NCBI GenBank assembly: GCA_944380315.1
Contig: CALWHG010000014.1
Location: 1-40,765 of the forward strand
Reading direction: 5' to 3'
Source of the DNA: an uncultured Lachnospiraceae bacterium
Lineage (GTDB): Bacteria; Bacillota; Clostridia; Lachnospirales; Lachnospiraceae
DNA length: 40,765 nucleotides
Below are positions 11,162-38,752 of this stretch, piece by piece. The stretch's first letter is position 1. Each line of letters begins with the position of its first letter. A program made the translations under genes and the position numbers. Under the pieces are notes generated by a model. The model was not told where the DNA came from, ran no database searches, and saw only the letters and a list, made by a program, of their open reading frames with translations.

Positions 11162-12550
11162 ATGGCAGATAATATCATAGAAGTAAAAAATGTCACAAAG
11201 GTCTACAGGCTCTACGACAAGCCCATAGACAGGCTGAAGGAAAGCCTCAGCCCCAGAGGAAAATGTCTCCACAGGGATTTTTATGCCCTGAGGGACGTGT
11301 CATTTTCAGTGGAAAGGGGACAGTCCTGCGGTATCATAGGCACTAACGGCTCGGGAAAGTCAACCATACTCAAGATAATAACCGGGGTGCTTTCAAAGAC
11401 CGAGGGCTATGTGAAGGCTGACGGCAAGATATCGGCACTGCTGGAGCTTGGAGCGGGCTTCAACAGCGACTATACGGGCATAGAAAACATATACATGAAC
11501 GGCACCATGATGGGCTTCTCCCGCAAGGAGATGGACGAGAGGCTGCCGGCCATACTGGAGTTTGCGGACATAGGAGACTTCGTGTATCAGCCGGTCAAGT
11601 CCTATTCCTCAGGCATGTTCGTGAGACTTGCCTTTGCCCTGTCCATAAACGTGGATCCGGAGATACTCATAGTGGATGAGGCCCTTTCCGTGGGAGACGT
11701 ATTTTTCCAGGCCAAGTGCTATCATCGCATGGATGAGCTGAGGGCCAAGGGCACGACCATACTCATGGTCACCCACGACATGGGCTCTGTCATGAAGTAC
11801 TGCGACAAGGTAGTGCTCCTGAACCGGGGCGAAAAGGTGGCAGAGGGCAGGCCCGGCGAGATGGTGGATCTGTATAAAAAGATACTGGCAGGACAGTATG
11901 ATCAGCTTAAGGACATGCTTGACGAAAGGAAAGATGAGGACGGCAGGGCTGACGGTGCCAGGGACGGAGCAGGAGCAGAGGCCGATGACCGGGAGACTGG
12001 AGCCGGGGCTTCAAAGGGAAGCCGGGCGGAAGCCTCCGATGCAGGGCAGAAAAGGCTCATGCGCAGTGAGATGAACATCAATCCAAACGTCAATGAGTAT
12101 GGTGACGGCAGGGCTGAGATATATGATTTTGGCATAGAGGATCAGAACGGCAGGCTGACGAATCTGGTGCTCAAGGGAGAGACATTTACCATAAGGGAGC
12201 GCATAAGGTTCAATGCTCCCATAGAGGCTCCCATATTTACATTTACCATAAGAGACAAAAAGGGCAATGACCTGACCGGCACGAACACCATGTTCGAGGG
12301 TGTGGACATAAAGCCCGTGAAGGCAGGTGACCGGTACGAATGCAGCTTCACCCAGAGGATGGACCTCCAGGGAGGTGAATACCTCATAAGCATGAGCTGC
12401 ACCGGATTTGAGCAGGGAGAGCATACAGTGTACCACAGGCTCTATGATCTGCTGAACATTACAGTCATATCAAACAAGAACACTGTGGGTGTCTATGACA
12501 TGGGGTCAGAGACTCACGCGGTGAAGCTGGAAGACAGAGATGATGGATGA
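11162..12550 (+). CDS. Wzt-type polysaccharide-export ABC transporter ATPase with C-terminal glycan-binding domain
   Basis: 462 residues. The ATPase domain (about 1-245) has Walker A GTNGSGKST (about 60-68), signature SYSSGM (about 146-151), Walker B ILIVDEALSVGD and the switch histidine in VTHDMGS. The LLELGAGFNSDYTGIENIY stretch marks the Wzt/TagH polysaccharide-export group. A low-complexity charged and Ala/Gly-rich linker (about 245-295) leads to a beta-rich C-terminal domain (about 300-455), as in Wzt proteins that recognise the non-reducing end of the glycan. The Wzm permease partner is not in the window. It overlaps the following glycosyltransferase fusion by 11 bp, so the two products are probably coupled and functionally linked. 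The ribosome site is weak. Confidence 0.88.
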   Translation: MADNIIEVKNVTKVYRLYDKPIDRLKESLSPRGKCLHRDFYALRDVSFSVERGQSCGIIGTNGSGKSTILKIITGVLSKTEGYVKADGKISALLELGAGFNSDYTGIENIYMNGTMMGFSRKEMDERLPAILEFADIGDFVYQPVKSYSSGMFVRLAFALSINVDPEILIVDEALSVGDVFFQAKCYHRMDELRAKGTTILMVTHDMGSVMKYCDKVVLLNRGEKVAEGRPGEMVDLYKKILAGQYDQLKDMLDERKDEDGRADGARDGAGAEADDRETGAGASKGSRAEASDAGQKRLMRSEMNINPNVNEYGDGRAEIYDFGIEDQNGRLTNLVLKGETFTIRERIRFNAPIEAPIFTFTIRDKKGNDLTGTNTMFEGVDIKPVKAGDRYECSFTQRMDLQGGEYLISMSCTGFEQGEHTVYHRLYDLLNITVISNKNTVGVYDMGSETHAVKLEDRDDG

Positions 12551-15500
12551 ATTCATATATGATCTGATCGAGGATCTTGATAAGAGCGGAGGCAATGTCC
12601 GGGCTGTCCTTAAAAAGGAGGACGATCCGGAATTTTATCATGCCCTGAGCGAGGACAGGCAGAACCTGGTCTCCTGGCTCCCCGTGAGCAAGGATATGGA
12701 CATACTGCTCTGCGGCGCCTGCTATGGTGCTTACTGCGGTCTGGCAGGCAGGGCCAGGAGCCTGGACATCTTTGATCCTTCGGAAAATGGTCTCACGGTG
12801 GTCAGAAAACGCTATGGAGACAGGCTCAGGGAGCTTGGAGACATAGGCCTTCACAAGACTGAGCCCCATAAGCTCTATGATCTTGTGATGCTCCCCGTCA
12901 TGGATGAGGGGATCTGTGCATATGCGGAGAGCTGCATCGAGGCGCCCAGCTTCGGAGAACGAAGGACCGAGGAGACGGACAGGCTGAGATCGGTGCTTGG
13001 TTACTTTGCACGCTTCCTTAAAAACGGAGGCAGCCTGGTATTTGCTCTCGACAACAATGACGGGCTGAGATATTTTTCCGGGGCTGAAAAGAGGGCCTCT
13101 GAGCGCTGCTTCTCCAGAGCTGAGACGGACAGGGCCATAAGGCGTCTTCCCTTCGATGGCAGCAGGTCCTATTATCCTTTGCCTGACATGTCCTTTGCAA
13201 GAGATATCTTCTCTGAGGACAGGCTTCCTGGGGAGGGAGATTTCAGGGGAGTGGCAAGGACCTTTTCGGGAGACGGCTACAGCCTCTGCGATCAGGAGGC
13301 ACTGTATGGAAGGCTTTCCGCAAAGGGGGCCTTCAGGGACTTCGCGCCCTCCTTCCTGGTACTGCTGACCGGATATCACGGCGAGCACATAAAGGATGTG
13401 GTGCTCATGAGCGAGCCCGAGGCCAGAAGACTCAGTGAGGATGAGCTCCCCATTTACATAAGATATAACAGGCGCAGGGATGAGCGCTACAGGATAAAGA
13501 CTGAGATACTTGAGACCGGGAAGGGCAGGGTCGTACGAAAGACGGCCCTTTCAGAGGCGGCAAATGACCATATACTGTCCTTTGAGCACAAGTGCAGCCT
13601 TCTTGAGGAGACCGTGGAAAACAAGGAGCTCCATATACTCAAGCCCCGTACAGGCCGAGACAGATACGGACTCATGTATGCGGAGTTTGATTATATCGAG
13701 GGCCGTACCATGGCCGAGATACTGGCCGATGACATAAAGGATGGCAGAGCGCCTCTTGGAAGGCTCCGGGATGCCCTGGAGTTCGTCATGGGACGAGGAC
13801 TCAGCGAATGCCATGATCTGGATCTGGTATTTGAAAATGTGCTGGTCAGCAGAGGCACGAGCTGGCTCATAGACTATGAATGGGTGTTTGATACTGCACC
13901 GGACCGGGATTATGTGAGATACAGGATACTCAGGTACTGGTATGAGGCCTACAGCCAGTCTCTTTATGCCTATAAGGATCTCCATGATTTCCTTGCCGAG
14001 TTCGGCATAAAGGGAGAGCTCCTTTCTGACTGTGAGGAGAGAGAGGAGTCCTTCCAGAGCTTTGTAAATGGAGACAGCGTGCTGGACTTCCCGCCCAAGT
14101 TCGGGGCAGCCCCCAAGGGTGTAGAGGAGGTAAAGGAGGCCTTCAGAAGGCTTCAGGAATTTACTGAGTGGAACCTGCGCCTCCAGGACGAGGTGGAGGA
14201 GCACAAGACAGCCATACGAAAGCTCCATGAGACAGAGAGGCTCAGCCAGAACCATATAACCAATCTTGAAAACATCATAAAGGCAAGGACTGCGGAAAAT
14301 GAGAGGCTCACCTCAGAGGTGGCATATCTTCGCAGACACAGGAGCCTCTATGCCAGGATAGCCGGGGCAGTGACTGCCCATTTTGACAGGACAGCTCCCC
14401 AGGGTTCAAGAAAGAGGAAGCTGCTCCACTATGCCAAAAATACGGTGAAGCATCCTCTGACCTATATCAGGCGATATGTGACCTCTGAGGGCAGACTGTT
14501 CATAAGAGGAGATCTGTCCATAGGAGGAGAGTTTGAGGAGGGAGGCTTCCTCAGACTGCCTGAGGTCGGAGAGGGAGGGCCTCTTGTATCCATAGTGCTG
14601 CCTGCCTACAACGAGGTGGCCTATACCTATGCCTGCATAAGGTCCATCATAGAGCATACGGATGCGGAAAAGACTCCCTATGAGGTCATACTGGCAGACG
14701 ATATGTCCACGGATGCGACTGCAGAGATAGATAAGTACATCACAGGCCTCCGCATAAGCAGGGGCACGGAAAATCAGGGCTTCCTGAAGAACTGCAACAG
14801 GGCTGCGCAGCTGGCTGCGGGAAGATACATACTGTTCCTCAACAACGATACCAAGGTGACCGATGGCTGGCTTCAGAGCCTTACGGATATGATGGAGAGA
14901 GATGACAGCATAGGTATGTGCGGCTCCAAGCTCATCTATCCGGACGGAAGGCTCCAGGAGGCTGGTGGCATCATATGGTCCGATGCCTCAGGCTGGAACT
15001 ACGGACGTCTGGATGATCCGGACAAGCCGGAGTATAACTACGTCAAGGATGTGGACTACATCTCCGGTGCTGCCATCATGATAAGGGCAGAGCTCTGGAA
15101 GGAGATCGGCGGCTTTGACGAGAGATATGCACCTGCCTACTGCGAGGACAGCGACCTGGCCTTTGAGGTTAGGAAGCATGGAAAACGGGTGGTATATCAG
15201 CCCAAGTCAGTGGTAGTGCATTTTGAGGGCATATCGAATGGTACTGACGTGGAGGGCACAGGCCTCAAGCGCTATCAGAAGATAAATAATGAGAAGTTCA
15301 GGGAAAAGTGGGCCGAGGAGCTTAAGAAGCAGCAGGTCAATGACGGCTCTCCCGATCCCTTCACGGCCCGTGACCGTTCCGCAGGGAAGAAGTGCATACT
15401 GGTCATAGACCACTATGTGCCCACCTGGGACAAGGATGCTGGCTCCCGCACCACCTATCAGTATATAAGGATGTTCATCAAGAAGGGCTTCAATGTAAAG

Positions 15501-16499
15501 TTCCTGGGGGACAACTTCCTTCATGAGGAGCCCTATACCTCGGAGCTCGAGCAGCTAGGAGTAGAGGTGCTCTATGGGGATGAGTACAAGCTGGGCATAT
15601 TTGACTGGATCAGGAAAAATGCAGCCCACATAGACATAGCTTATCTCAACAGGCCCCACATAGCCGCTAAATACATAGACTTCCTCAAGGATGAGACTGA
15701 TATAAAGTGCATATACTATGGCCACGATCTGCATTTCCTCAGGCTGGGACGTGAGTATGAGCTAACGGATGATATCAGGTACAAGAGAGAGGCAGAGTAC
15801 TGGAAGAGCGTGGAGCTCTCTGTCATGGACAGGGCCGACATGGTATATTACCCCTCTGAGGTGGAGATAGAGGCCATAAGAGAGCTCAGGCCTGACATAA
15901 AGGCCAGGGCCATAACTGCCTATACCTGGGATGAATTCCCGGAGCCCCCCTCCGATGAGGAGACCAGGGAGGGCATGCTGTTTGTGGGAGGCTTTGCCCA
16001 TCCGCCAAATGAGGATGCCATGCTCTGGTTTGCAAAGGACATATGGCCTTCCATCAGGGAGGAGCTTCCTGAGGCAAAGCTCTATGTGGCCGGATCCCAT
16101 GTGACTGAGGCAGTGGAGGAGCTCGGCAGCATAGACGGCATAGAGATACTGGGCTTTGTAAGCGATGAAAGGCTCAAGGAGCTTTACGACAGCACCAGGC
16201 TGGTGGTAGTGCCCCTCAGATACGGAGCCGGAGTCAAGGGCAAGGTGGTAGAGGCCCTTTATCATGACTGCGTGGTAGTCACTACCGAGGTCGGCGCCGA
16301 GGGCATACCTGATGCGGACAGCGTTATGGCAGTGACTGAGTCAGGACCGGAGGAGGCCTCTGATCTTGCTGCGGACGTGGTCAAGCTATATAAGGACGAT
16401 GTCTTCTGCAGTGCCATAAGGCGCGCAGCAGCTGCTTACGTCAGACAGCATTACAGCATCGATGCCGCCTGGGATGTCATAAAGGAGGATCTTACCTGA
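12540..16499 (+). CDS. Multidomain glycan-assembly protein: methyltransferase-like, kinase-like, coiled coil, GT2, GT4
   Basis: 1319 residues. Residues about 50-290 look like a class I SAM methyltransferase: altered motif I ILLCGACYGAYCG (about 54-67), acidic motif II DIFDPS, YDLVML (about 113), and FLKNGGSLVFALDN (about 160-172). Residues about 315-480 look like a kinase or phosphotransferase: RVVRKTAL with a possible ATP-binding lysine, HDLDLVFENVL with D428 and N433 spaced as in HxDxxxxN loops, and D445 in WLIDYEWVF. About 530-602 is a heptad-rich coiled coil. A GT2 domain (about 681-900, VSIVLPAYN, FLNNDTKV) and a GT4 domain (about 951-1319, PLRYGAGVKGKVVEAL) follow. Soluble and probably membrane-associated through partners. 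It overlaps wzt and resembles WbdD fused to its polymerase; catalytic competence of the first two domains is unproven. Confidence 0.82.
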   Translation: MMDEFIYDLIEDLDKSGGNVRAVLKKEDDPEFYHALSEDRQNLVSWLPVSKDMDILLCGACYGAYCGLAGRARSLDIFDPSENGLTVVRKRYGDRLRELGDIGLHKTEPHKLYDLVMLPVMDEGICAYAESCIEAPSFGERRTEETDRLRSVLGYFARFLKNGGSLVFALDNNDGLRYFSGAEKRASERCFSRAETDRAIRRLPFDGSRSYYPLPDMSFARDIFSEDRLPGEGDFRGVARTFSGDGYSLCDQEALYGRLSAKGAFRDFAPSFLVLLTGYHGEHIKDVVLMSEPEARRLSEDELPIYIRYNRRRDERYRIKTEILETGKGRVVRKTALSEAANDHILSFEHKCSLLEETVENKELHILKPRTGRDRYGLMYAEFDYIEGRTMAEILADDIKDGRAPLGRLRDALEFVMGRGLSECHDLDLVFENVLVSRGTSWLIDYEWVFDTAPDRDYVRYRILRYWYEAYSQSLYAYKDLHDFLAEFGIKGELLSDCEEREESFQSFVNGDSVLDFPPKFGAAPKGVEEVKEAFRRLQEFTEWNLRLQDEVEEHKTAIRKLHETERLSQNHITNLENIIKARTAENERLTSEVAYLRRHRSLYARIAGAVTAHFDRTAPQGSRKRKLLHYAKNTVKHPLTYIRRYVTSEGRLFIRGDLSIGGEFEEGGFLRLPEVGEGGPLVSIVLPAYNEVAYTYACIRSIIEHTDAEKTPYEVILADDMSTDATAEIDKYITGLRISRGTENQGFLKNCNRAAQLAAGRYILFLNNDTKVTDGWLQSLTDMMERDDSIGMCGSKLIYPDGRLQEAGGIIWSDASGWNYGRLDDPDKPEYNYVKDVDYISGAAIMIRAELWKEIGGFDERYAPAYCEDSDLAFEVRKHGKRVVYQPKSVVVHFEGISNGTDVEGTGLKRYQKINNEKFREKWAEELKKQQVNDGSPDPFTARDRSAGKKCILVIDHYVPTWDKDAGSRTTYQYIRMFIKKGFNVKFLGDNFLHEEPYTSELEQLGVEVLYGDEYKLGIFDWIRKNAAHIDIAYLNRPHIAAKYIDFLKDETDIKCIYYGHDLHFLRLGREYELTDDIRYKREAEYWKSVELSVMDRADMVYYPSEVEIEAIRELRPDIKARAITAYTWDEFPEPPSDEETREGMLFVGGFAHPPNEDAMLWFAKDIWPSIREELPEAKLYVAGSHVTEAVEELGSIDGIEILGFVSDERLKELYDSTRLVVVPLRYGAGVKGKVVEALYHDCVVVTTEVGAEGIPDADSVMAVTESGPEEASDLAADVVKLYKDDVFCSAIRRAAAAYVRQHYSIDAAWDVIKEDLT

Positions 16500-20227: not shown

Positions 20228-20605
20228 TCAATGAAGATGTTGTTTGATCCAGAGTGACAGATCATCTGCTGAACATCTTCTTGCTGCAATGGCTATGAAC
20301 ATATCAGATAACTCTCCTTCATTCAGATCCAATATATATCCATTCCATTTAAGCAGCAGCTGAGTGATGAGCGCTCCGATCCTTTTATTTCCGTCCAGGA
20401 AAGCATGATTTGAAGCAAGTCCATATCCTAATCTTGCGATTTTTTCAATATCAGTTTTATAAAGATCATTACCATCAAAGGACTGAAGGGGAGCAGCTAC
20501 CGCGGCTTCAAGAAGTGATCTGTCTCTTAAGCCGTCAAGTCCTCCGGTTTTACGGATCAGATGAGAATGAAGCATGATAATGTCTTCGGTGTCGATCCAG
20601 ATCAT
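20228..20605 (-). CDS. doc: Doc/death-on-curing Fic-fold toxin
   Basis: 125 residues, the length of Doc-type Fic proteins. Doc of phage P1 phosphorylates EF-Tu and stops translation. The catalytic motif is NHAFLDGNKRIGA (about residues 66-78), matching HxFx(D)xNKR with the key histidine present. The remaining helices (SLLEAAVAAP, KIARLGYGLASNH) fit the family. Its ATG overlaps the stop of the upstream RelB/DinJ-like gene by four bases (ATGA), the usual coupling of a toxin to its antitoxin. The toxin looks intact. Confidence 0.88.
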   Translation of the reverse strand: MIWIDTEDIIMLHSHLIRKTGGLDGLRDRSLLEAAVAAPLQSFDGNDLYKTDIEKIARLGYGLASNHAFLDGNKRIGALITQLLLKWNGYILDLNEGELSDMFIAIAARRCSADDLSLWIKQHLH

Positions 20606-28528: not shown

Positions 28529-28906
28529 ATGATCAGTCTTGACTATAAAGACAAACGGCCCTTATATGAGCAGATATCGGAAAAGCTCAAGGAGCTCATG
28601 GCTGTGGGAGGCCTTCCGGAAAATTCCCAGCTTCCCAGCGTCCGTGCGCTGGCCATAGACCTGAGCATCAACCCTAACACCATCCAACGGGCCTATGCGG
28701 AGCTGGAGAGACAGGGCTATATATACAGCATTAAGGGCAAGGGCAATTTTGTTGCCCAGACGGAGCGTCTCCAGTACCTCAAGGTAGAGGAGCTCCGGGG
28801 CAGGCTCGCTGCCATACTGGATGAGGCCCAGAGGCTTGGCATGAGCGATGATGAGATCATAGACTTCATAAGAGGCATCATAGCCGAAAGGAGCATTTCC
28901 GCATGA
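28529..28906 (+). CDS. GntR-family regulator, YtrA subfamily
   Basis: 125 residues: an N-terminal winged helix (about 8-75, PLYEQISEKLKELM, QLPSVRALAIDLSINPNTIQRAYAELERQG) and only a short helical C-terminal dimerisation tail. That is the hallmark of the YtrA subfamily, which controls adjacent ABC exporters, often in response to cell-envelope stress. Its stop overlaps the following ABC ATPase start by four bases (ATGA). Ribosome site AGGAGAGGAG. A dyad operator lies just upstream. Confidence 0.93.
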   Translation: MISLDYKDKRPLYEQISEKLKELMAVGGLPENSQLPSVRALAIDLSINPNTIQRAYAELERQGYIYSIKGKGNFVAQTERLQYLKVEELRGRLAAILDEAQRLGMSDDEIIDFIRGIIAERSISA

Positions 28907-29808
28907 TAGAGACAGTTTCGCTTACAAAACGATTTGATGACATAGTGGCTCTGGACCATGTGACTGCCACCATCAGGGAGGGACAGGTGTTTGGACTCAT
29001 AGGCACCAACGGGGCCGGCAAGTCCACCTTCCTGCGCTGTCTTTCAGGCATATATAAGCCTGAGGAGGGCGAGGTGACCATAGACGGGGCCCCGGTGTAT
29101 GAGCATACGGCGGTGAAGGAGAGATTTTTCTTCATATCCGATGATCAGTACTTCTTTCCCAGCGCCACGCCCCTTGACATGGCGTCCTCCTATGCCATCT
29201 ACTACAGGCATTTTGACAGGGAGCGCTTCAAGAGGCTCCTTTCGGAGTTCGGCCTTGACGGACACAGGAAGATATCAACATTTTCAAAGGGCATGAAGAA
29301 GCAGCTGTCAGTCATACTGGCACTGTCAGCTCATACTGACTATATATTCTGCGATGAGACCTTTGATGGCCTGGATCCTGTCATGAGGCAGGCGGTCAAG
29401 TCCCTGTTTGCAAATGACATGGCAGAGAGGGGACTGACTCCCGTCATAGCCTCCCACAACCTGAGGGAGCTGGAGGATATGTGTGACCATGTGGGGCTAC
29501 TTCATAAGGGTGGCATACTGCTGTCAAAGGACATAGATGATCTGAAGCTGGGAGTACACAAGATCCAGTGCGTATTTGCCTCAGAAAAGGAGCCTGAGCA
29601 GATAGAGGGCCTTGAGATCATAAAGTGTGAGCACAGGGGCAGGCTGCGCACCATCATAGTCAGGGGCGATGAGGATCGTATCCGGGCGCTTATGGACCGG
29701 GAGGAGACCGTGTTCTATGAGCTCATACCTCTTTCTCTGGAAGAGATATTCATAACGGAGACTGAGGTAGCAGGCTATGATGTAAAGAAGATCATACTGG
29801 GAGAGTGA
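28903..29808 (+). CDS. ABC transporter ATPase (YtrB-like)
   Basis: 301 residues. Walker A GTNGAGKST (about 35-43), signature STFSKGMKKQ, and Walker B IFCDETFDGLD, where Cys and Thr replace the more common Leu and Pro around the DE pair. The H-loop is ASHNLREL. The C-terminal 80 residues form the usual regulatory tail of ABC-2 exporters. It is coupled to the GntR gene upstream and stands 4 bp before its permease. The transported substrate is not evident. Confidence 0.9.
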   Translation: MIETVSLTKRFDDIVALDHVTATIREGQVFGLIGTNGAGKSTFLRCLSGIYKPEEGEVTIDGAPVYEHTAVKERFFFISDDQYFFPSATPLDMASSYAIYYRHFDRERFKRLLSEFGLDGHRKISTFSKGMKKQLSVILALSAHTDYIFCDETFDGLDPVMRQAVKSLFANDMAERGLTPVIASHNLRELEDMCDHVGLLHKGGILLSKDIDDLKLGVHKIQCVFASEKEPEQIEGLEIIKCEHRGRLRTIIVRGDEDRIRALMDREETVFYELIPLSLEEIFITETEVAGYDVKKIILGE

Positions 29809-29812
29809 TATT

Positions 29813-31927
29813 ATGCTGAAGATGATAAAAGAGGATCTGCATTATAACCTGGGTACCCTGCTTCTGGGGCTCCTCGTCATGGTATTTAACTATCCCATAA
29901 ACCTGGCCCTGCAGCTCAGCGAACTGAAGGACAGGATGGACAGCTATATGGTCACTACGGAGATGTCCTGGGACGGCCCCAGCTCCTTCGTCGTGGCTGA
30001 AAAAATCACGGATCTTGGAGAGCGCATGACCAGGACCACCAACATGGTCCTTTGCGGCACCGGCGGCCTGCTGGCTTTGATCATACCCGTGGCGGCGGTG
30101 CTATGTGCAAGGTGCATGTTCCACTATCTGATGCAGAAGAGCACTGTGGACTTTTACATGAGTGAGCCCGTCAGCCGCCAGAAGCGCTTTGCCGCAAACT
30201 ACATCAGCGGACTTCTGATCATGCTCATAAGTCTCCTTACGGGATTCGTGCTCTGCCTGCCGGTGGCCCTGGCCTATGGTGTGGAGGGGATGGAGCTGGG
30301 CACTGCCCTGGCATCCAGCCTTGGCTTCATGCTGGTGTTCCTGATGCTTTATACCACGGTCATCATAGCCATACTGCTGTGCGGAAGGACCTTTGCCGCC
30401 GTGGCTGCGGTCATAGTCATAAATGGCATCGGCTTCTGCGTATATGCGGTCATGATGGTGTTCATGAACTTTTTCGACACCTACATAGAGTATGGTACGC
30501 CGATCTGGGAGAAGCTTTACTATACCTCACCCATATACTATATCTTTGAGTATATGGAAAGACTGACACCCAGGAGCTCTTCCATAGCCGTCATGAGCCC
30601 TGAGGTGCTGAGGCTCATGCTGGTCATGGCAGGGATATCGGCTCTGCTCATACTGCTGGCAGTCCTGCTTCACCGCATAAGGCCCTCTGAGGCCTGCGGA
30701 AGCACTCTGGCATTTCCCTTGACCAGGAGGCCCCTCAGGGTGATCCTGAGCATCATGGGAGGTCTGCTGCTCTCCTTCCTGGGGATATATCAGAGCGGAG
30801 TGTTCTGGGTATTTTTCTTTACCCTCCTGGGAGTGGTCATAGTCCATGCCATGGCGGAGATAGTCATCAACATGGATGTGCGCATGCTTTTTTGCCACAG
30901 GATAGAGACAGCCATATGCATGGCGGCGGCCTTTGGCTTCGTATGCATTTTCGTCTTTGACCCCTTCGGCTATGATGCCTATGTGCCTGAGGCCTCAAGT
31001 CTTCAGTCCGTGGCCATAAGCTATAACGGAGACTTTGAGGAGAGACGGGCCATAAGCCTTTCGGACTATCAGTACGAGTATGAGACTGAGCATCCGGAGG
31101 ATATATACACTACGGAGTACTGGGACGGACAGCCGGACGGCTTCCTTGAGATGGCCATCACCGAGGAGCCCTATGTGGATGCAGTACTTGAGCTGGCCTG
31201 CTGCGGAGCAGAGCATGCCTCCGGCGTAAACTACAGGGGCTATGAGGACTATTATGATGAGGATAGCTATCTGATAGACGTGGCCTACAGGCTCAGGAGC
31301 GGCTCTGTCAGGTACAGGCGCTATGAGCTCTCGAGAGCCGAGGTGGATGAGTACATGCCGGGCATATTTGCCTCCATGGAATATAAGACCGCCATGTATC
31401 CCATACTCGAGCTTCCGGAGGAGGAGCTGGGACTTTTCGGCATAGAGTATGCAGATGATGCTGAGGGAGCAAGGCTGGAAGCAGAAGGAAAGCTCAGCGG
31501 AAAGGAGATCAGGACGAATCCCTATGCCTCCAGGGACTGGGATGATTTTGGCTCCGTATATGACATAAACGAGGATCAGAGCTTCAGGCGAGAGCTGCTT
31601 GCGGCCCTTAAGCAGGACATAAGCGATATGCGCTTTGAGGACTACGAGGACTGGTTCTACACGGTGGATTCCGGATATAACGAAGAGACGGGAAGGGTAG
31701 AGACATTTTCAGATTCAGAGCTTTATAAGGAGGGCGATGTGCCCGGCTGCTACCTGATAGATGACATCATCTATTACATCCCCGAGACCTCGGTGCTCAT
31801 GGCAGACATGCACTATGAGGCCGGAGACAACTATACCTACGAATACAGGGACATCTACCCCGTATTTGACAGCTTCACCCATGTAAGGGAGGTCCTGAGC
31901 GACTACGGATATGTGGATCAGGACTGA
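29813..31927 (+). CDS. ABC-2-type permease with large extracytoplasmic C-terminal domain
   Basis: 704 residues. About eight to nine hydrophobic segments occupy residues 15-385 (for example LGTLLLGLLVMVFNYPI, YISGLLIMLISLLTGFVL, MAAAFGFVCIFVFDPFG). About 320 acidic, Tyr-rich residues without membrane spans follow, presumably outside the cell. Similar long permeases accompany YtrA-type regulators in Clostridia. Partner of the ATPase just upstream. It may export or sense an envelope-active compound; the substrate cannot be named. Its ribosome site is weak and overlaps the end of the ATPase gene. Confidence 0.78.
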   Translation: MLKMIKEDLHYNLGTLLLGLLVMVFNYPINLALQLSELKDRMDSYMVTTEMSWDGPSSFVVAEKITDLGERMTRTTNMVLCGTGGLLALIIPVAAVLCARCMFHYLMQKSTVDFYMSEPVSRQKRFAANYISGLLIMLISLLTGFVLCLPVALAYGVEGMELGTALASSLGFMLVFLMLYTTVIIAILLCGRTFAAVAAVIVINGIGFCVYAVMMVFMNFFDTYIEYGTPIWEKLYYTSPIYYIFEYMERLTPRSSSIAVMSPEVLRLMLVMAGISALLILLAVLLHRIRPSEACGSTLAFPLTRRPLRVILSIMGGLLLSFLGIYQSGVFWVFFFTLLGVVIVHAMAEIVINMDVRMLFCHRIETAICMAAAFGFVCIFVFDPFGYDAYVPEASSLQSVAISYNGDFEERRAISLSDYQYEYETEHPEDIYTTEYWDGQPDGFLEMAITEEPYVDAVLELACCGAEHASGVNYRGYEDYYDEDSYLIDVAYRLRSGSVRYRRYELSRAEVDEYMPGIFASMEYKTAMYPILELPEEELGLFGIEYADDAEGARLEAEGKLSGKEIRTNPYASRDWDDFGSVYDINEDQSFRRELLAALKQDISDMRFEDYEDWFYTVDSGYNEETGRVETFSDSELYKEGDVPGCYLIDDIIYYIPETSVLMADMHYEAGDNYTYEYRDIYPVFDSFTHVREVLSDYGYVDQD

Positions 31928-31969: not shown

Positions 31970-33781
31970 ATGAAAGAGCGTGTGATCAATTTTCTGAAGG
32001 ATCAGAACAGGATGCTTGATATGGCGATGCTTTTCTGCATCGCCGTATTTGCGTTTTATGTAAACAGGGACATAGAGATAAAGGGACTCTATATGGACGA
32101 CCTTTACATGTGGTCCTGCTATGGAGAGCAGAGCTTCATGGAGTTCGTGTTCCCGGTGGGCACCTCCACCAGGTTCAGGCCGGTATACTGGCTGTTTACC
32201 TACCTGCAGATGGCCATCATAGGCAATCATGTGGACTGGTTCGTGGCCTTCAATGTCATCTGCAATATCATAGTGGCCTATGAGCTGTTTTACATATGCA
32301 GGAGGCTGTCCGGAAGCAGGCTGCTGCCCTTCTTTTCAGCGCTCTGCTATCTGGCCTCCCGCTTTGCCTATTATCAGATAGGGCAGGCCCTGGGACTTAT
32401 GGAGACCCTGGCTCAGTTCTTTGCCCTTTGGATATTTTATCTGCTCTATGTCTATATGAACAGGCCAAACGACCGTACCAGGGCGGAGCTCATAGCAGAG
32501 GGAGAGGCAGTGCTCGTGCAGACCGGCCAGAAGCCGGAGCTCAGCCTGAGGCTGGTGCGGAGCAGCGACATTTATTTTGCCGGCGCTCTGGCTCTCTATG
32601 TGCTGCTGTGCTTTACCCATGAGCGATATCTCTGCCTCCTTCCACTGTTTTATATGGTGCTGGCAGTAAAATGGCTTCGGGAGCAGAGGGCCTGGAGGAA
32701 AGCCTGGTTCATGGAAAACCGTGGCAAATGGCTGGCTCCTCTTCTGAGCTTTCTGATCATCATGGCCATAAGGCTCCTTAGCACCGGCGCCTTGGTGCCT
32801 GCGGGCACGGGAGGGACCGAGGTGACTGATACATTTTCCGCAGCTCAGACCCTGTCCTTCGTCATGGATGAGATAGCCTATATATTTGGCATAAATGCCG
32901 GAGACAATTATCTCTCGGCTCTGTCCTGGACTGAGACTCCGGAGCTCATAAAGGCCCTTGTCAAATCAAGTGTGCTGTGCATAGGCGTCATAGCTGCACT
33001 GTATGTCATAGTACTGCTTCTGGAGAGCTCTGAGAGGAAAAAGGACGAAGAAAAGGACGGAGGCGACATCTTCTGGCGACATGTGGCAGACAGCCTGCTC
33101 ATGCTCATGTTCATGGGGCTCTGCATAGGGGCTTCATCGGTCACCATCAGAGTGGAGATGAGATGGGTATATGTCTCCTACAGCATGGCCCTCATATTTG
33201 CCTGCTACATGATATCGGCCATAGGCTCGGCCTACAGGTCCTCCTTTGCGGTGGACGATGCCAGGGCAGCGGACAAGGGCCCGGCTGGCAAGGCTGCTCC
33301 CGGAGTGCTGGAGGGCAACATATTCAGGCGTATGTCGCTTACGGTAGCCGACAGGCTCGTGGGTCCCAAGGTGTTTTACGGGATCATATGCCTTGTGTTC
33401 CTGGCCTACTGTGGGCTCAGCATATATACAAATGTCTTTTATCGGGGATATTTTCCCAACATATATTTCTGGCAGGATCAGCAGCGCATGAACTCTCTGG
33501 CAGAGGAGACCGTGGAGAAGTACGGCGTGGAGGGAGTGCTTGGAAAGCAGGTATACATACTTGAAAATACCTATGGCATGTCGGATTTTTACGGAGACAC
33601 CTTCTTTAAGGTGTATGATAAGGAAAAGACGGGCCAGGGAACTGTCATACATTTCATAGATGATATGGAGGATGTGCCCGAGGATGAGCTTCGATGGGGC
33701 GGGGCTCTGGTGCTCATGGAGGTCCCTGAGGAAAATGGCTACAGAGACGTGACGGAGGATGCTTACTCGTACATACGGTAG
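31970..33781 (+). CDS. Polytopic membrane protein, GT-C glycosyltransferase-like
   Basis: 603 residues with about ten to eleven membrane segments. After the first span comes an acidic pair, KGLYMDDLYMW (about 39-49), in the external loop, followed by RFRPVYWLF. That layout resembles GT-C enzymes, which use lipid-phosphate sugars outside the membrane. A soluble segment of about 130 residues forms the C-terminus. The specific family is not recognised with certainty. It opens the surface-glycan block and overlaps the convergent GT2 gene by 19 bp at its 3' end. A GAGG ribosome site lies about 13 bases from the ATG. Confidence 0.65.
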   Translation: MKERVINFLKDQNRMLDMAMLFCIAVFAFYVNRDIEIKGLYMDDLYMWSCYGEQSFMEFVFPVGTSTRFRPVYWLFTYLQMAIIGNHVDWFVAFNVICNIIVAYELFYICRRLSGSRLLPFFSALCYLASRFAYYQIGQALGLMETLAQFFALWIFYLLYVYMNRPNDRTRAELIAEGEAVLVQTGQKPELSLRLVRSSDIYFAGALALYVLLCFTHERYLCLLPLFYMVLAVKWLREQRAWRKAWFMENRGKWLAPLLSFLIIMAIRLLSTGALVPAGTGGTEVTDTFSAAQTLSFVMDEIAYIFGINAGDNYLSALSWTETPELIKALVKSSVLCIGVIAALYVIVLLLESSERKKDEEKDGGDIFWRHVADSLLMLMFMGLCIGASSVTIRVEMRWVYVSYSMALIFACYMISAIGSAYRSSFAVDDARAADKGPAGKAAPGVLEGNIFRRMSLTVADRLVGPKVFYGIICLVFLAYCGLSIYTNVFYRGYFPNIYFWQDQQRMNSLAEETVEKYGVEGVLGKQVYILENTYGMSDFYGDTFFKVYDKEKTGQGTVIHFIDDMEDVPEDELRWGGALVLMEVPEENGYRDVTEDAYSYIR

Positions 33782-34566
33782 CTCCTCCGATAGGGGATCA
33801 TGAGAAGGGAAGCTATGGGTGCAGGCCAGAGCTTTCTGAACATGAGCTCCTCCTCCGAGCCTCTGAGGCCCTGATGAGTTAGCCGGCTGGTGGCAGCGCC
33901 CTCATGCACTCTGTAGGATATGAGCTCCCTTTCATCACATATGAATCTGCCTGGCCTTCTGGCCAGACGTATGAGGGCATCCCAATCGGTGACGAAGCTG
34001 TATTCACCGGAAAATACTGAGGTGCCCGTAAGTTTTACTGCATAGCTGCAGCTTGGACAGCATATACCGTTGCCGAATCTGATCGGCAGCTCCTTAATGA
34101 AGCGCGTCCCGGAAAGGCCCCTGAGTCTCAGAGGCATCCGCAGGATGCGCTTTATCCCTTCTATGGAATGAGGTATGACATGGCCTTCAGCATCTATGGT
34201 CTCGTAGCGGGTGCAGAAAAGGGACATGTCAGGCCAGCGCCTGCAGGCCTCAAGGAGGGCCCGTCTGTAGCCCGGGTGATAGATATCATCCTGATGGGCT
34301 ATGGTCACAAGCTCTGCTTCACGCTCCTCAGTCGCAGTCCTCATGGCATAGTTCCAGTCATCCCGAAGAGAGCTCTGGCCGCTGCGCACATAAAGGGGGA
34401 TGCCATAGCGCTTCGCCAGGGCCCTTATATGCTCATTGTCCGTGGAGGTGCAGATGATCACATCTCCCGGCGTATCCTGACTGAGGACAGAGCTTATGCA
34501 CTGCTCAAGGTAGGGAGAGCATCCGTATGCGCATATGGAAAATGTATGCCTTGGCTGTCTGTCCAT
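33763..34566 (-). CDS. Family 2 glycosyltransferase
   Basis: 267 residues, GT-A fold. The nucleotide-binding start is TFSICAYGCSPYLEQCISSVLSQ (about 8-30), and the DxD-type motif is VTIAHQDDIYHPGYRRAL (about 87-104). VTDWDALIRLARR marks the acceptor region. Soluble or peripherally attached. It is coupled to the SIS isomerase gene upstream (start ATG shares one base with its stop). Its 3' end overlaps the convergent membrane-protein gene by 19 bp. The sugar donor is unknown. Confidence 0.82.
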   Translation of the reverse strand: MDRQPRHTFSICAYGCSPYLEQCISSVLSQDTPGDVIICTSTDNEHIRALAKRYGIPLYVRSGQSSLRDDWNYAMRTATEEREAELVTIAHQDDIYHPGYRRALLEACRRWPDMSLFCTRYETIDAEGHVIPHSIEGIKRILRMPLRLRGLSGTRFIKELPIRFGNGICCPSCSYAVKLTGTSVFSGEYSFVTDWDALIRLARRPGRFICDERELISYRVHEGAATSRLTHQGLRGSEEELMFRKLWPAPIASLLMIPYRRSYRMYE

Positions 34567-35225
34567 CAGATCTCAAAATAGGTGTCCTCAAGCATGAGGC
34601 ACAGGGTATGATATATGGGCAGGTGGAGCTCCTGTATCTTATAGGTCTCCTGCTCTGGAGCCACTATGGCTATGTCTGCCTCCTTGGCAAGGCGCCCGCC
34701 ATCCCTGCCTGTAAGGCCTATGACGGTCATGCCCAGGGCCTTGGCCACTGGAAGGGCATACAGCAGGTTTTTGCTGTTTCCGGAGGTGGATATGAGCATC
34801 AGCACGTCGCCGGGAGTGCCATAGCCCAGGGTCTGCTGGGCAAAACAGAAGGCCGGATCCACATCATTTGCAAATGCGGTGTTGAGGCTCTGGTGCTCCG
34901 ACAGGGACAGGGCCATGAGGCCAAGCTGGAGCTTGCCTGCGGTCTCCTTGCCATAAACGGGATCCAGCTGCTCTATGGCAGCAGCAAGCTCAGGCCCAAG
35001 GGGCCTTTTTTTGCAGAAGCCCTTCATGAGCTCCCCCACTATGTGCTGGGCATCTGATGAGGAGCCGCCGTTTCCGGCCACAAGGAGCTTGCCTCCTCTG
35101 TCATAGCAGTCCCTGAGGGCCTCATAGGCCTTCAGGATGTCCGGACAGACGGGTGCAAGGACGGGATATCTTTCGGAAAGCTCCGCAAGCCTTCCTTCTA
35201 TGAGCTTAGTTCTTTCGTTATTCAT
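34566..35225 (-). CDS. SIS-domain phosphosugar isomerase, GmhA-like
   Basis: 219 residues. The SIS fold with GNGGSSSDAQHIVGELM (about 52-68) and LISTSGNSKNLLYAL is closest to GmhA, which converts sedoheptulose 7-phosphate to heptose 7-phosphate for surface heptoses. FANDVDPAFCFAQQ also fits. The other heptose genes (gmhB, hddA/hldE) are not in the window. No ribosome site is visible before the ATG; the leader is very AU-rich. The promoter overlaps the divergent rfbF promoter. Confidence 0.78.
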   Translation of the reverse strand: MNNERTKLIEGRLAELSERYPVLAPVCPDILKAYEALRDCYDRGGKLLVAGNGGSSSDAQHIVGELMKGFCKKRPLGPELAAAIEQLDPVYGKETAGKLQLGLMALSLSEHQSLNTAFANDVDPAFCFAQQTLGYGTPGDVLMLISTSGNSKNLLYALPVAKALGMTVIGLTGRDGGRLAKEADIAIVAPEQETYKIQELHLPIYHTLCLMLEDTYFEI

Positions 35226-35261
35226 AATATTTATTTTATTTGATTAAATGCCTTTGATGGG

Positions 35262-35291
35262 TTAATATTTACGATGTATATTATATATAAT
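35262..35291 (+). promoter_or_regulatory. Promoter of rfbF-rfbG
   Basis: TTAATA (35262-35267), an 18-bp spacer and a perfect TATAAT (35286-35291). It interlocks with the divergent promoter of the SIS gene. Confidence 0.55.
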
Positions 35292-35309
35292 AAAATGAAA
35301 AACAGGCAA
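35280..35309 (-). promoter_or_regulatory. Promoter of the SIS isomerase-GT2 operon
   Basis: On the minus strand TTGCCT (35309-35304), an 18-bp spacer and TATAAT (35285-35280). The -10 boxes of the two divergent promoters abut, so both cannot be occupied at once. Confidence 0.5.
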
Positions 35310-35345
35310 TATCCTATATAAACAAAAAGAAAAGGGAAGACATAT

Positions 35346-36116
35346 ATGAAAGTCGTGATACTGGCAGGAGGCCTTGGCACCCGCATCAGCGAGGAGAGCC
35401 ACCTGAGGCCCAAGCCCATGATAGAGATAGGGGAGCAGCCCATACTGTGGCACATCATGAAATACTATTCTGCCTTCGGCTTCGATGATTTCATCATCTG
35501 TGCCGGATACAAGCAGTATGTCATAAAGGAGTATTTTGCGGATTTCTTCCTGCACAACAGCGACGTGACCTTCGATCTTTCGCAGGGGAGCATGGAGGTG
35601 CTCAGCAATAACTCTGAAAAGTGGAAGGTGACCATAGTGGATACGGGCCTCAACACCATGACCGGAGGCAGGATCAAGCGCATACAGAGGTATGTGGGCC
35701 AGGAGACCTTCATGCTGACCTATGGCGACGGGCTCTGCAATGTGGATCTGGATAAGCTGCTTCAGTTCCATCGCTCTCATGGCAGGCTGGCCACGGTGAC
35801 TGCGGTCAACATAGCCCAGCTCAAGGGTGTCATGGAGGTGGAGCAGGATGGCAGGATCACGGCCTTCAGGGAGAAAAATGACCGGGACGCCGCCATCATA
35901 AACGGAGGCTTCATGGTATTTGAGCCCGGCTTCTTTGACTATCTTGAGGGCGATGACACTGTACTTGAGCAGGAGCCATTTTCACGGTTATGCAGCGAGG
36001 GGCAGATGATGAGCTTCTACCATGACGGCTTCTGGCAGTGCATGGATACCCAGCGGGAAAAGAAGAAGCTGGAGGAGCTCTGGGCCAGCGGTCACGCACC
36101 CTGGAAGATCTGGTGA
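35346..36116 (+). CDS. rfbF: Glucose-1-phosphate cytidylyltransferase
   Basis: 256 residues. Makes CDP-glucose from glucose 1-phosphate and CTP, the entry to CDP-linked deoxysugars. The nucleotidyltransferase start MKVVILAGGLGTRISEE and RPKPMIEIGEQPILWHIMK (about 22-40) are typical of RfbF, and the metal-binding region is TYGDGLCNVD. It is full length. Ribosome site GGGAAG. rfbG follows by 31 bp, so both steps of the pathway are co-expressed. Confidence 0.95.
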   Translation: MKVVILAGGLGTRISEESHLRPKPMIEIGEQPILWHIMKYYSAFGFDDFIICAGYKQYVIKEYFADFFLHNSDVTFDLSQGSMEVLSNNSEKWKVTIVDTGLNTMTGGRIKRIQRYVGQETFMLTYGDGLCNVDLDKLLQFHRSHGRLATVTAVNIAQLKGVMEVEQDGRITAFREKNDRDAAIINGGFMVFEPGFFDYLEGDDTVLEQEPFSRLCSEGQMMSFYHDGFWQCMDTQREKKKLEELWASGHAPWKIW

Positions 36117-36147
36117 TCGTCGGGAAGCTTTTTTAAGGGAGATATAA

Positions 36148-37296
36148 ATGCCTCATACTGATAGATTGAAGGAATTTTATAAGGGAAAGCGTGTCCTGGT
36201 GACGGGGCACACGGGCTTTAAGGGAAGCTGGCTCTGCGTGCTGCTTTCATATCTTGGAGCAGAGGTCTATGGCTATGCGCTTGAGCCCGATACGGAGCCT
36301 GCTCTTTTTTCCATGCTGTACGGAGCTGAGCCTGAGGGTGAGCTGAGGCTTCAGCTTGAAGCTGAGCAGCTTCCGGAGAGCTGGTCTGAGGCGGGCAAAG
36401 CCACTTTGCACAGCCACATAGGGGATATAAGGAGCTTTGAGGAGCTTAAGAGCTTCTATGAAAATGCTGCACCTGAGGTGGTCATACATCTGGCGGCTCA
36501 GCCCATAGTCAGGGAATCCTATGTCATCCCAAGGGAGACCTATGAGATAAATGTCATGGGCACCGTCAATCTGCTGGAATGCGTGCGCACCATACCGGGC
36601 TGCAGGTCAGTCCTTAACGTGACCACGGACAAGGTCTATCTCAATGAGGAGAGAGAGGGCTACGGCTACAGGGAGGAGGACAGGCTGGATGGCTATGATC
36701 CCTATTCCAACTCCAAGTCCTGCTCGGAGCTTGTGACCCACAGCTACAAGGCTGCATTTTTTGATGGTATGGATATAAGAGTATCCACTGCCCGTGCGGG
36801 AAATGTCATAGGAGGAGGGGATTTTGCGAAGGATCGCATCATACCGGACTTCATGAGGGCGGTGAAGGCTGGAAGGAGCCTCTGCGTCAGGAATCCCTAC
36901 AGCACCAGGCCCTATCAGCACGTGCTGGAGCCCCTGCTTGCCTATCTTTACATAGCCATGAGGCAGTGGGAGGACAGCTCACTTTCCGGCTGGTACAATG
37001 TGGGACCTGATGACTGCGACTGCGTGACCACAGGAGAGCTCTGCGATATCTTCCAGAGGGCCTATGGTCAGGGCGCCTGCTGGCACTCTGAGGCGGAGAA
37101 GGATGCGCCCCATGAGGCCTCCTTCCTGAAGCTTGACAATACTAAGCTCAAGGAGACCTTCGGGCTCCATCCCGTATGGCATATAGATGAGGCCGTAAAA
37201 GCCTCTGCGGACTGGACCAGGGCCTGGCTTGAGAGCGATGCCCGGGCAAACAAAGAGCTGCTTCGGCAGATCGAAGCATTTTTGAAGGATCTCTGA
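36148..37296 (+). CDS. rfbG: CDP-glucose 4,6-dehydratase
   Basis: 382 residues, short-chain dehydrogenase fold. The NAD site is VLVTGHTGFKGSWL (about 15-28) and the catalytic region has NVTTDKVYLNEE and DPYSNSKSCSELV, where Tyr and Lys form the YxxxK-type pair. It turns CDP-glucose into CDP-4-keto-6-deoxyglucose. RfbH (the 3-dehydrase) and later CDP-deoxysugar enzymes are not in the window, so the final sugar is unknown. Ribosome site AAGGGAG. Confidence 0.95.
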   Translation: MPHTDRLKEFYKGKRVLVTGHTGFKGSWLCVLLSYLGAEVYGYALEPDTEPALFSMLYGAEPEGELRLQLEAEQLPESWSEAGKATLHSHIGDIRSFEELKSFYENAAPEVVIHLAAQPIVRESYVIPRETYEINVMGTVNLLECVRTIPGCRSVLNVTTDKVYLNEEREGYGYREEDRLDGYDPYSNSKSCSELVTHSYKAAFFDGMDIRVSTARAGNVIGGGDFAKDRIIPDFMRAVKAGRSLCVRNPYSTRPYQHVLEPLLAYLYIAMRQWEDSSLSGWYNVGPDDCDCVTTGELCDIFQRAYGQGACWHSEAEKDAPHEASFLKLDNTKLKETFGLHPVWHIDEAVKASADWTRAWLESDARANKELLRQIEAFLKDL

Positions 37297-37342: not shown

Positions 37343-38752
37343 TTGAGAAGCTGCATCAGGAATATGATTGACGGATCATCACGAAAAAAACATACAGACC
37401 TTTTGCTGTGCCTCCTGCTGACGGCTCTTGGAGGCATTTTTCTGCTGTGGTATATAAGGGCAGCAGGTGCTGATGTGGTCTACAGCGACTATATCAGGAT
37501 AGTGGAGGAGTACCTGCCGGATGCCCTGGATCCTCAGAAGCTGTTCGTTCCGGACATACTTACCCGTATCCCGGCCACCTTCCTTCAGCGCTTTATAAAT
37601 GTGGAGCTGTTTTCCTACTCGGTGACCTTTGACCGCGTATGCTCGGCTCTGGGTATAACGGGCTGCGCCCTCATGACGGCTCTCTATATGCATAAGGAGC
37701 GCATGTCTGCACTATGGTTCATACCCATAGCGACGGTCACATTTTCTCTTAACAAATGGGAGATCATACTGAACGGCACGGCCTGGGCCCATACGGTGGC
37801 CTTTGCCATGTTTTTCCTGAATTATCTTCTGCTGGACAGCTATTATGAGGGCAAGGGATCAAAATGGGGCAGGACAGCTCTTTGCAGCATGCCGTTTATC
37901 ATACTGCTGTTTTCAGGAGAATACATAGCATCATACGCTGCGGTCATGGCAGTAGCCTATATCTTCTGCATGCTTGAGCAGAGAGACCGTATATACATAA
38001 GAGGACTTGTCTGTACCCTGGCGGCCCTGGGACTGTATCTGCTCAGCCGGCATTTCGCCGTATGGGAGCATGCGGGGGCTACGGATATGAGCCTTATGGA
38101 GGTAGTGGCTGAGGACCCCTTGTTTATACCGAGGCTGTTCATAAAGAGCTTTGCAGGAGCAGTGCTTGGGCAGCAGGCCATGGCGGATTTTTACGGTCCT
38201 GCCATGCCGCTTTCAGATAGCTGGGTATTGCTTATCGGAGTGCTGGTCATAGGCGCATATATATTTGCCATAGCTCTGTATATCAGGCACAGCCTATGGA
38301 AAAGAAGCATCTACCCAATGATACTCATGCTTTCTGGGGGCTTCAATCATGTGCTGGTCACGGCCTCCCGCTGGATATTCCTTAATGATGACTATGGCCT
38401 GAGCTCCCGCTATGGAGCCCAGTTCATGATAGGCATCATAGGCATACTGCTTACATTTGCTTTGTATTTTAAGGTAAGGGACAAAGAAAAAAAGAGATGC
38501 GGAGCGCTGATGATGATACTGACTGTGCTGATCTTTGCAGGCAGCATCCTGACCACCAGGGCAGAGCTTGCCATAGTGCCCTACAGAGAACAGAATTATG
38601 AGGCACTGCGACAGGCAGTACTGGATTATCGCAGCTATGAGCCTGAGGAGCTGGCCGGGCTACTTGAGTGGGGCAAATCCGAGGATACCATGTACAGGGC
38701 TCTTGAGATACTTGAGGATAACAGGCTGAATGTGTTTTCCGGCTTGGACTGA
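37343..38752 (+). CDS. Polytopic membrane protein, possibly glycan-related
   Basis: 469 residues with about eleven hydrophobic segments (first LLLCLLLTALGGIFLLWYI), followed by an external loop with VVYSDYIRIVEEYLPDAL. The architecture recalls GT-C-type or O-antigen-ligase-type membrane proteins, but no family motif is certain. The start is ambiguous: a TTG at 37343 gives the longest frame, while the ATG at 37364 begins MIDGSSRKKHTD; neither has an ideal ribosome site. It follows rfbG by 46 bp and probably belongs to the same glycan operon. Confidence 0.6.
   Translation: MRSCIRNMIDGSSRKKHTDLLLCLLLTALGGIFLLWYIRAAGADVVYSDYIRIVEEYLPDALDPQKLFVPDILTRIPATFLQRFINVELFSYSVTFDRVCSALGITGCALMTALYMHKERMSALWFIPIATVTFSLNKWEIILNGTAWAHTVAFAMFFLNYLLLDSYYEGKGSKWGRTALCSMPFIILLFSGEYIASYAAVMAVAYIFCMLEQRDRIYIRGLVCTLAALGLYLLSRHFAVWEHAGATDMSLMEVVAEDPLFIPRLFIKSFAGAVLGQQAMADFYGPAMPLSDSWVLLIGVLVIGAYIFAIALYIRHSLWKRSIYPMILMLSGGFNHVLVTASRWIFLNDDYGLSSRYGAQFMIGIIGILLTFALYFKVRDKEKKRCGALMMILTVLIFAGSILTTRAELAIVPYREQNYEALRQAVLDYRSYEPEELAGLLEWGKSEDTMYRALEILEDNRLNVFSGLD

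Follow-up and report, generated by a model that had tools for sequence, protein, structure and literature searches.

Among described systems the nearest to the one considered here is ORF6 of Klebsiella pneumoniae O7 (ORF6-O7), which by assay polymerises the chain, phosphorylates the terminal rhamnose at O-3, and methylates that phosphate (PMC11231755, Kelly et al. 2024). Its second glycosyltransferase family 2 (GT2) module adds alpha-1,3-linked rhamnose; chains made by the D441A mutant are not exported; the kinase is called quite different from that of WbdD, and a match to AmiN is published; and orthologues occur in alpha- and gammaproteobacteria and cyanobacteria, with homologues in an archaeon and, in the sections consulted, none in Bacillota (PMC11231755). 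We examined a stretch of 40,765 nucleotides from an uncultured Lachnospiraceae bacterium (contig CALWHG010000014.1, assembly GCA_944380315.1; hereafter the window), in which a wzt gene is followed by a gene for a 1319-residue protein that carries a methyltransferase fold, a kinase fold, a coiled coil, a GT2 module and a glycosyltransferase family 4 (GT4) module, in that order, in one chain. We consider this protein, with a probability of about 0.78, to be a one-chain O7-type terminator-polymerase of an ATP-binding cassette (ABC) transporter-dependent, probably rhamnose-containing surface polysaccharide, with a kinase that is predicted to be active.

The wzt open reading frame (ORF) encodes 462 residues, and the gene pair has an aminotransferase gene on one side and a ylmH-like gene on the other. 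The features are as follows, all on the plus strand, with the basis for each in parentheses.

11162..12550, plus: Wzt-type ABC ATPase with a C-terminal carbohydrate-binding Wzt_C domain (ORF; Pfam ABC_tran 4.4e-21, Wzt_C 3.4e-43)
12089..12502, plus: Wzt_C, putative cap-reading domain, with Arg426 where Aquifex has Trp362, in the methyl pocket (Pfam, alignment)
12540..12550, plus: 11 bases shared by wzt and the terminator-polymerase gene (ORFs)
12540..16499, plus: probable O7-type terminator-polymerase, 1319 residues (ORF, Pfam, profiles)
12558..13364, plus: methyltransferase-fold domain, residues 7-275 (profiles of relatives, AlphaFold2 model)
12708..12731, plus: degenerate S-adenosylmethionine (SAM) motif I, LCGACYGA, residues 57-64 (family alignment)
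13452..14075, plus: kinase domain resembling aminoglycoside phosphotransferases (APH) and protein kinases, residues 305-512 (family alignment, model folds)
13539..13541, plus: invariant kinase Lys334 (103/103)
13812..13838, plus: kinase catalytic loop, residues 425-433, D428 and N433 invariant (103/103)
13872..13883, plus: DYEW motif at the DFG place, residues 445-448 (D445, E447 and W448 in 103/103)
14121..14336, plus: predicted coiled-coil helix of 72 residues, 528-599, a ruler candidate (model, heptads, spacing)
14583..15308, plus: GT2 polymerase module, residues 682-923 (Pfam GT2 4e-24)
15336..16493, plus: GT4-type polymerase module, residues 933-1318 (Pfam PF13692 3.9e-20)

Residues 1-650 gave no Pfam family over cut-off, and searches of Pfam, NCBIfam and Protein Data Bank (PDB) sequences with the N-terminus of the window protein alone returned no result because this member is too diverged; profiles of its relatives were therefore used. 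Methyltransf_23 was matched at 0.01 or better by 12 of 17 aligned N-terminal halves (that of the window being among the misses), and the 17-row profile matched solved class I SAM methyltransferases, the best at 1.7e-10 (60 of 112 rows viewed). The only Pfam hint in the kinase region, TCAD9 (0.035), was below cut-off and was discarded. An AlphaFold2 model of residues 1-676, built from the 17-row alignment, had a mean predicted local distance difference test score (pLDDT) of 80, and its kinase blocks were mostly at 90 or more. At E 0.001, fold searches yielded 239 rows with this model and 124 with that of L110, a relative modelled at a mean pLDDT of 81; the top 50 of each were viewed, and matches were assigned to domains by the kind of protein, not by aligned residue ranges. 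The best match to the window model was the methyltransferase NodS (2.7e-7), and its kinase-like matches included KSR1:MEK1 (1.2e-5), PknI (4.8e-5), RIO1 (8.7e-5) and APH(3')-Ia (1.1e-4); for the L110 model the best methyltransferase was BioC (1.2e-5), and the kinase neighbours were largely macrolide and aminoglycoside phosphotransferases and PknI. An earlier note, made from the sequence alone, had read this protein as methyltransferase, kinase, coil, GT2 and GT4, overlapping a Wzt with a C-terminal domain. The ORFs, Pfam, the profiles and the model bear out that order, and neither the searches through relatives, which gave a methyltransferase, nor the structure prediction, which gave a methyltransferase and a kinase-like fold, brought the different fold of the N-terminal half that would have spoken against the note.

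Within helix 528-599, hydrophobic residues occupy 14 of 20 heptad a/d positions compared with 11 of 52 positions elsewhere, a pattern reached in 45 of 20000 shuffles. The spacing from kinase to GT2 was near-constant in the family (165-230, median 169, standard deviation 7.7, n=95), alongside a mean identity of 45% among the coil sequences.

The N-terminal half was matched (E<=1e-5, some matches being partial) in 100 of 200 genomes of the window's taxonomic family, its own included, or 99 of 199 genera. Phylum-wide, 21 of 398 matched the profile at 1e-10, seven of these over a generic methyltransferase stretch only, and those seven were excluded from the protein family. Of 570 relatives confirmed in a scan of public genomes the best 80 were retained, which tilts the sample towards near ones, and the 26 relative loci in the locus comparison were among the better-scoring matches and not a random draw; domain E-values for family loci and for the Gram-negative homologues discussed below are small-set values. 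The collection held 137 family proteins, or 131 after six duplicates were dropped before counts were made. We label the family Lachnospiraceae-type; Lacrimispora and Candidatus Avilachnospira are among the relatives, and some relatives are recorded as Clostridium, Eubacteriales, Fusobacterium naviforme and Paenibacillaceae. Three forms were seen: the fused form, with the complete order from methyltransferase to GT4 (64 of the 131); a split form, in which one gene encodes the methyltransferase (28) and another the kinase, coil, GT2 and GT4 (31); and a stand-alone methyltransferase-kinase form (8 proteins, 622-704 residues). The fused and split forms required at least six changes on a quick tree of 91 rows rooted at midpoint. 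Sequencing frameshifts were rejected as the origin of the split forms, given these six changes and the length of the open frames in many records. A chance fusion or an error of assembly was rejected for the window, since its layout is that of all 64 fused proteins, itself included. In 37 of the 64 the terminator gene overlaps wzt, as judged from longest ORFs.

For 98 of 103 family proteins, that of the window included, a Wzt_C-type Wzt is encoded on the same strand no more than 1.6 kb upstream. Two of the five exceptions (L075, L140) are cut by the contig, two (L078, L080) have a Wzt about 3 kb upstream, and for L064 there is none in the stretch; linkage to wzt, whose absence in relatives would have spoken against the earlier note, is thus the rule. 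The window Wzt_C was the sole Wzt_C over cut-off in its whole genome, and the same search passed the cut-off in two of 14 control genomes. A literature search, covering few subscription papers, did not find this architecture described for any Lachnospiraceae member.

The connection to ORF6-O7 was made through Gram-negative homologues. A search of plasmid proteins with the stand-alone form gave eight records, of which two were informative, both with genes for an ABC permease and for a Wzt of the Wzt_C type. Pseudomonas asturiensis pCC1524 encodes a 1457-residue protein next to these; Citrobacter braakii pF217-3 encodes one of 649 residues and also carries rmlBACD. Motifs of the 1457-residue protein are G91/G93, Asp443 as the catalytic-type residue, DHDD (1011-1014) and NxD (1268-1270). 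The residues given for ORF6-O7 are G91/G93, D441, D975/977/978 and N1230/D1232 (PMC11231755), and, the motifs being at or near these positions, we take the P. asturiensis protein to be of the ORF6 type. The methyltransferase profile of the family scored 123.5 bits on this protein and 124.8 bits on that of C. braakii; the family GT2 profile favoured the second GT2 of the P. asturiensis protein over the first (190.6 vs 93.0 bits). The nearest characterised relative is hence probably ORF6 of K. pneumoniae O7, reached via the P. asturiensis homologue, and not WbdD, which had been proposed as the closest model.

Judged from the alignments, the fates of the two capping domains are unequal, the kinase being invariant at key positions and the methyltransferase motif eroding. 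All 103 non-duplicate kinase domains have R313, T321, K334, H344, G388, D428, N433, D445, E447, W448, R462, E502 and Q506, among them the catalytic and metal-binding residues (K334, D428, N433, D445), and the spacing is kinase-like (5 from D428 to N433, 17 from D428 to D445). The loop HDLDLVFEN, supposed earlier to be altered, is near the usual loop of the family. As to the methyltransferase, the suspicion that motif I is altered held: LCGACYGA in the window fails the E/DxGxGxG pattern, and a canonical motif I ([ED]xGxGxG) was found in 19 of 100 methyltransferase domains (that of L063 being one, and L046 and L127 being excluded from the 100), namely 8/8 stand-alone, 5/28 split and 6/64 fused. 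Of the two domains that the earlier note thought might be structural, it is the methyltransferase, in its motif I, that is degenerate, and not the kinase. Mean pairwise identities for methyltransferase and kinase, respectively, were.555 and.331 in stand-alone,.331 and.373 in fused, and.434 and.467 in split forms (99 loci; pairs whose kinases were at least 0.7 identical excluded; pairs non-independent). Motif I was lost in seven fused proteins (L041, L091, L109, L110, L116, L122, L135), which form one clade (support 100), so that the loss counts as one event; with the midpoint root only, this clade groups (support 100) with the window's clade of 12 members, all with a non-canonical motif I. The motif-less members keep all kinase residues and a Wzt_C-type Wzt at 7/7 loci, and the methyltransferase fold is still predicted in the L110 model. 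Other residues of the methyltransferase domain were retained more widely: the acidic position that closes strand 2, D79 of the window protein, in 93/100, N172 in 100/100, and Gly59 and Gly63 in most. Canonical motifs are scattered on the tree (8 changes).

The window Wzt_C aligned at 3.1e-5 with PDB chain 2r5o, the Wzt of E. coli O9a, and at 1.3e-4 with a Wzt chain of the Aquifex type. Trp362 of Aquifex Wzt stacks on the methyl cap (PMC9445017). It falls on window Arg426, if the numbering of the chain runs one ahead of that of the paper, as the Trp and Met positions suggest; and Arg stands at this place in 97/97 family Wzt_C domains, in 2r5o, and in both Gram-negative homologues. An Arg so conserved would fit a phosphate-type cap. 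Wzt_C is nearly identical in polymerase-linked members with canonical and with non-canonical motif I, from which it may be argued that the cap is the same. In the motif-less clade Wzt_C has H425D and L427K in 7/7, representing one lineage and one event.

Given these patterns, the main alternatives concern what the methyltransferase domain still does. If motif I has merely drifted and both domains are active, the protein would carry out the full O7-like chemistry and leave a methyl-phosphate cap, a reading to which we give somewhat less than an even chance. The retained acidic residue, glycines and N172 agree with it, as does the near-identity of Wzt_C across canonical and non-canonical members, which is what an unchanged cap predicts; the scarcity of canonical motifs in fused and split forms compared with the stand-alone form does not, nor does a methyltransferase identity that is below that of the kinase in the fused and split forms and far above it in the stand-alone form. 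It is also possible, though we hold this more tentatively, that the kinase is the only terminator, the methyltransferase domain being now a scaffold and the cap a plain phosphate: the motif-less clade has lost motif I and keeps its fold, its kinase residues and its Wzt, it groups with the all-non-canonical clade of the window, and in O9a phosphorylation is sufficient for chain termination (PMC3482155). Yet the strand-2 acidic residue persists in the window protein, the clear loss is a single event in one clade, the scattered canonical motifs would permit drift either way, and the reading is drawn from sequence. In an equally tentative extension of it, the capping head would be turning from a kinase-methyltransferase into a kinase-only device, with the methyltransferase as scaffold, unmethylated phosphate ends, and Wzt_C reading phosphate through Arg426; the change would be complete in the motif-less, Oribacterium-type clade, where Wzt_C would have followed.

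Two further explanations seem to us far less probable. A true homologue of E. coli O9a WbdD, fused to a polymerase, would have the same order of methyltransferase, kinase and coiled coil, and NodS, the best fold match of the window model, is also reported among the closest folds of the WbdD methyltransferase (PMC3482155); but WbdD was not among the top 50 of the 239 and of the 124 fold rows, nor among the 60 of 112 profile rows viewed, and the macrolide and aminoglycoside phosphotransferases and PknI that neighbour the L110 kinase are akin to the AmiN match of O7, so that we think such descent improbable. A methyl-only capper with a structural kinase domain is suggested by WsaE of Geobacillus, a Gram-positive in which a methyltransferase is joined to two rhamnosyltransferases behind wzm/wzt (PMC2943079); here the conservation is the reverse, the kinase being invariant while the methyltransferase erodes, and Wzt_C has Arg and not Trp at the methyl-pocket place, and we regard this as the least credible of the alternatives.

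The earlier note spoke of linkage to wzt/wzm; wzt does adjoin the terminator gene, but no wzm lies beside it or elsewhere in the window, and the wzm that probably partners it is next to rmlC on a different contig. The genome has two ABC2-type permeases over cut-off, on contigs C21 and C1, and the C21 permease resembles the family Wzm more closely (2e-115 vs 7e-81 for the C1 gene). The C21 wzm sits behind rmlC and a DUF2142 gene; in relatives rmlC was directly before wzm in 8/8 tested and a DUF2142 gene before rmlC in 2/2 tested. The order of rmlC and wzm in relatives being that of C21, the genome resembles the usual cluster cut in two. A 20-kb stretch around the C21 wzm held no Wzt_C, and an ABC ATPase of lower score (8e-65) is about 9 kb downstream of that wzm. 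Pairing of the window Wzt with the C1 wzm was rejected, as the latter has its own short Wzt without Wzt_C. Separation of this kind is common in the family: Wzm was absent from the examined stretch, contig ends included, for 41/64 fused, 6/31 split and 1/8 stand-alone members, and in eight genomes without wzm at the locus a wzm relative was found in 8/8, one as a fragment only. In genome G178 the wzm part and the wzt/terminator part share a contig, with over 1 Mb between them; in G117, a genome of the same genus as that of the window, they are on different contigs. With rmlB also present in the genome of the window, the glycan would hold a dTDP-derived 6-deoxyhexose, probably rhamnose. Ruminococcus gnavus has a glucorhamnan cluster of 23 genes, and the rhamnan backbone of that glycan is 2- and 3-linked (PMC12413058). 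On contig C1 of the window genome (L060), wzm and wzt occur again in another cluster, together with several GT2 genes; this is perhaps of the cap-independent type, its Wzt being without a C-domain.

For the O7-type terminator-polymerase we favour, the GT2 and GT4 modules would extend a lipid-linked chain (rhamnan polymerisation), and the coiled coil, by analogy, would keep a constant gap between polymerase and capping head, by which chain length would be set. The kinase, going by homology and its strictly conserved catalytic residues, would phosphorylate the non-reducing-end sugar and stop growth, and export would depend on Wzt reading the phosphate cap. In Klebsiella O7 the phosphate is then methylated; for the window protein this second step is doubtful because motif I is degenerate. 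Several points weigh against this assignment. By itself the window protein matches no methyltransferase model; the template modelling (TM) scores for the kinase fold are modest (0.3-0.4); and the kinase profile is weak on the Gram-negative homologues (18.6 bits, collinear, on P. asturiensis and 3.9 bits on C. braakii). The comparison with ORF6-O7 was by way of the P. asturiensis homologue and published positions, and that with WbdD by fold lists and descriptions; and the Gram-positive members are known from their sequences and models. The Wzm that presumably pairs with the window Wzt, that of C21, is on another contig, and the glycosyltransferases accounted for are the GT2 and GT4 modules, other enzymes being needed for the repeat unit and linker.

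Elsewhere in the window, positions 28529-31927 encode a GntR regulator, an ABC ATPase and a 704-residue permease with DUF6449; in G117 (L040), too, ORFs of like size and order are downstream of the terminator gene. This ABC2-type permease (30044-30553 stretch) was rejected as a wzm, being below the family cut-off and having its own ATPase. Minus-strand GT2 and SIS-domain genes beside plus-strand genes for an NTP-transferase and an NAD-epimerase (GDP-mannose-dehydratase-like) at 33763-37296 resemble a small nucleotide-sugar set, perhaps of the heptose type. ORFs at 31970-33781 (603 residues) and 37343-38752 (469 residues) had zero Pfam matches at 0.1, and a short Fic/DOC-domain protein is encoded on the minus strand at 20228-20605.

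The joining of capping, length control and polymerisation in one chain, which the earlier note had put forward, agrees with the modules found beside a putative cap-reading Wzt; it is not new, since it is published for the Gram-negative ORF6-O7. What is new is a common Lachnospiraceae-type branch with a GT2+GT4 polymerase, gene fission, wzm elsewhere, and unequal fates of the capping domains. The results suggest that, in much of a major gut family, surface glycans are given a defined length through the cap, ruler and export logic of O-antigens, for which Gram-negatives have been the main source of knowledge. Canonical, altered and lost methyltransferases occur in nature beside an invariant kinase, in fused and split forms, and through this series it can be tested which half of the cap termination needs and which half export needs.

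Compared with known systems, E. coli O9a WbdD is alike in a cap made by kinase then methyltransferase, a coiled-coil ruler, and export coupled to Wzt_C; it is separate from the polymerase WbdA, whereas the window protein has polymerase modules in the same chain. WsaE of Geobacillus stearothermophilus is likewise Gram-positive, a fusion of a methyltransferase with two rhamnosyltransferases whose gene overlaps wzt; it differs in having three domains, with no kinase reported, and in its 2-O-methyl cap and S-layer glycan (PMC2943079). In Klebsiella O12 WbbB, too, a single polypeptide serves as polymerase, terminator and ruler (summarised in PMC11231755). In place of the kinase-methyltransferase it has three glycosyltransferase modules. 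The terminator module of WbbB adds Kdo (3-deoxy-D-manno-oct-2-ulosonic acid). The closest likeness is to K. pneumoniae O7 ORF6, with a methyltransferase, an APH-like kinase, a coiled coil, two glycosyltransferase modules and cap-dependent export. The O7 protein has two GT2 modules and an immunoglobulin-like carbohydrate-binding module between kinase and coil, whereas the window protein has GT2 and GT4, with 15 residues between its kinase (to 512) and its coil (from 528), a degenerate SAM motif, a wzm elsewhere, and a Gram-positive host.

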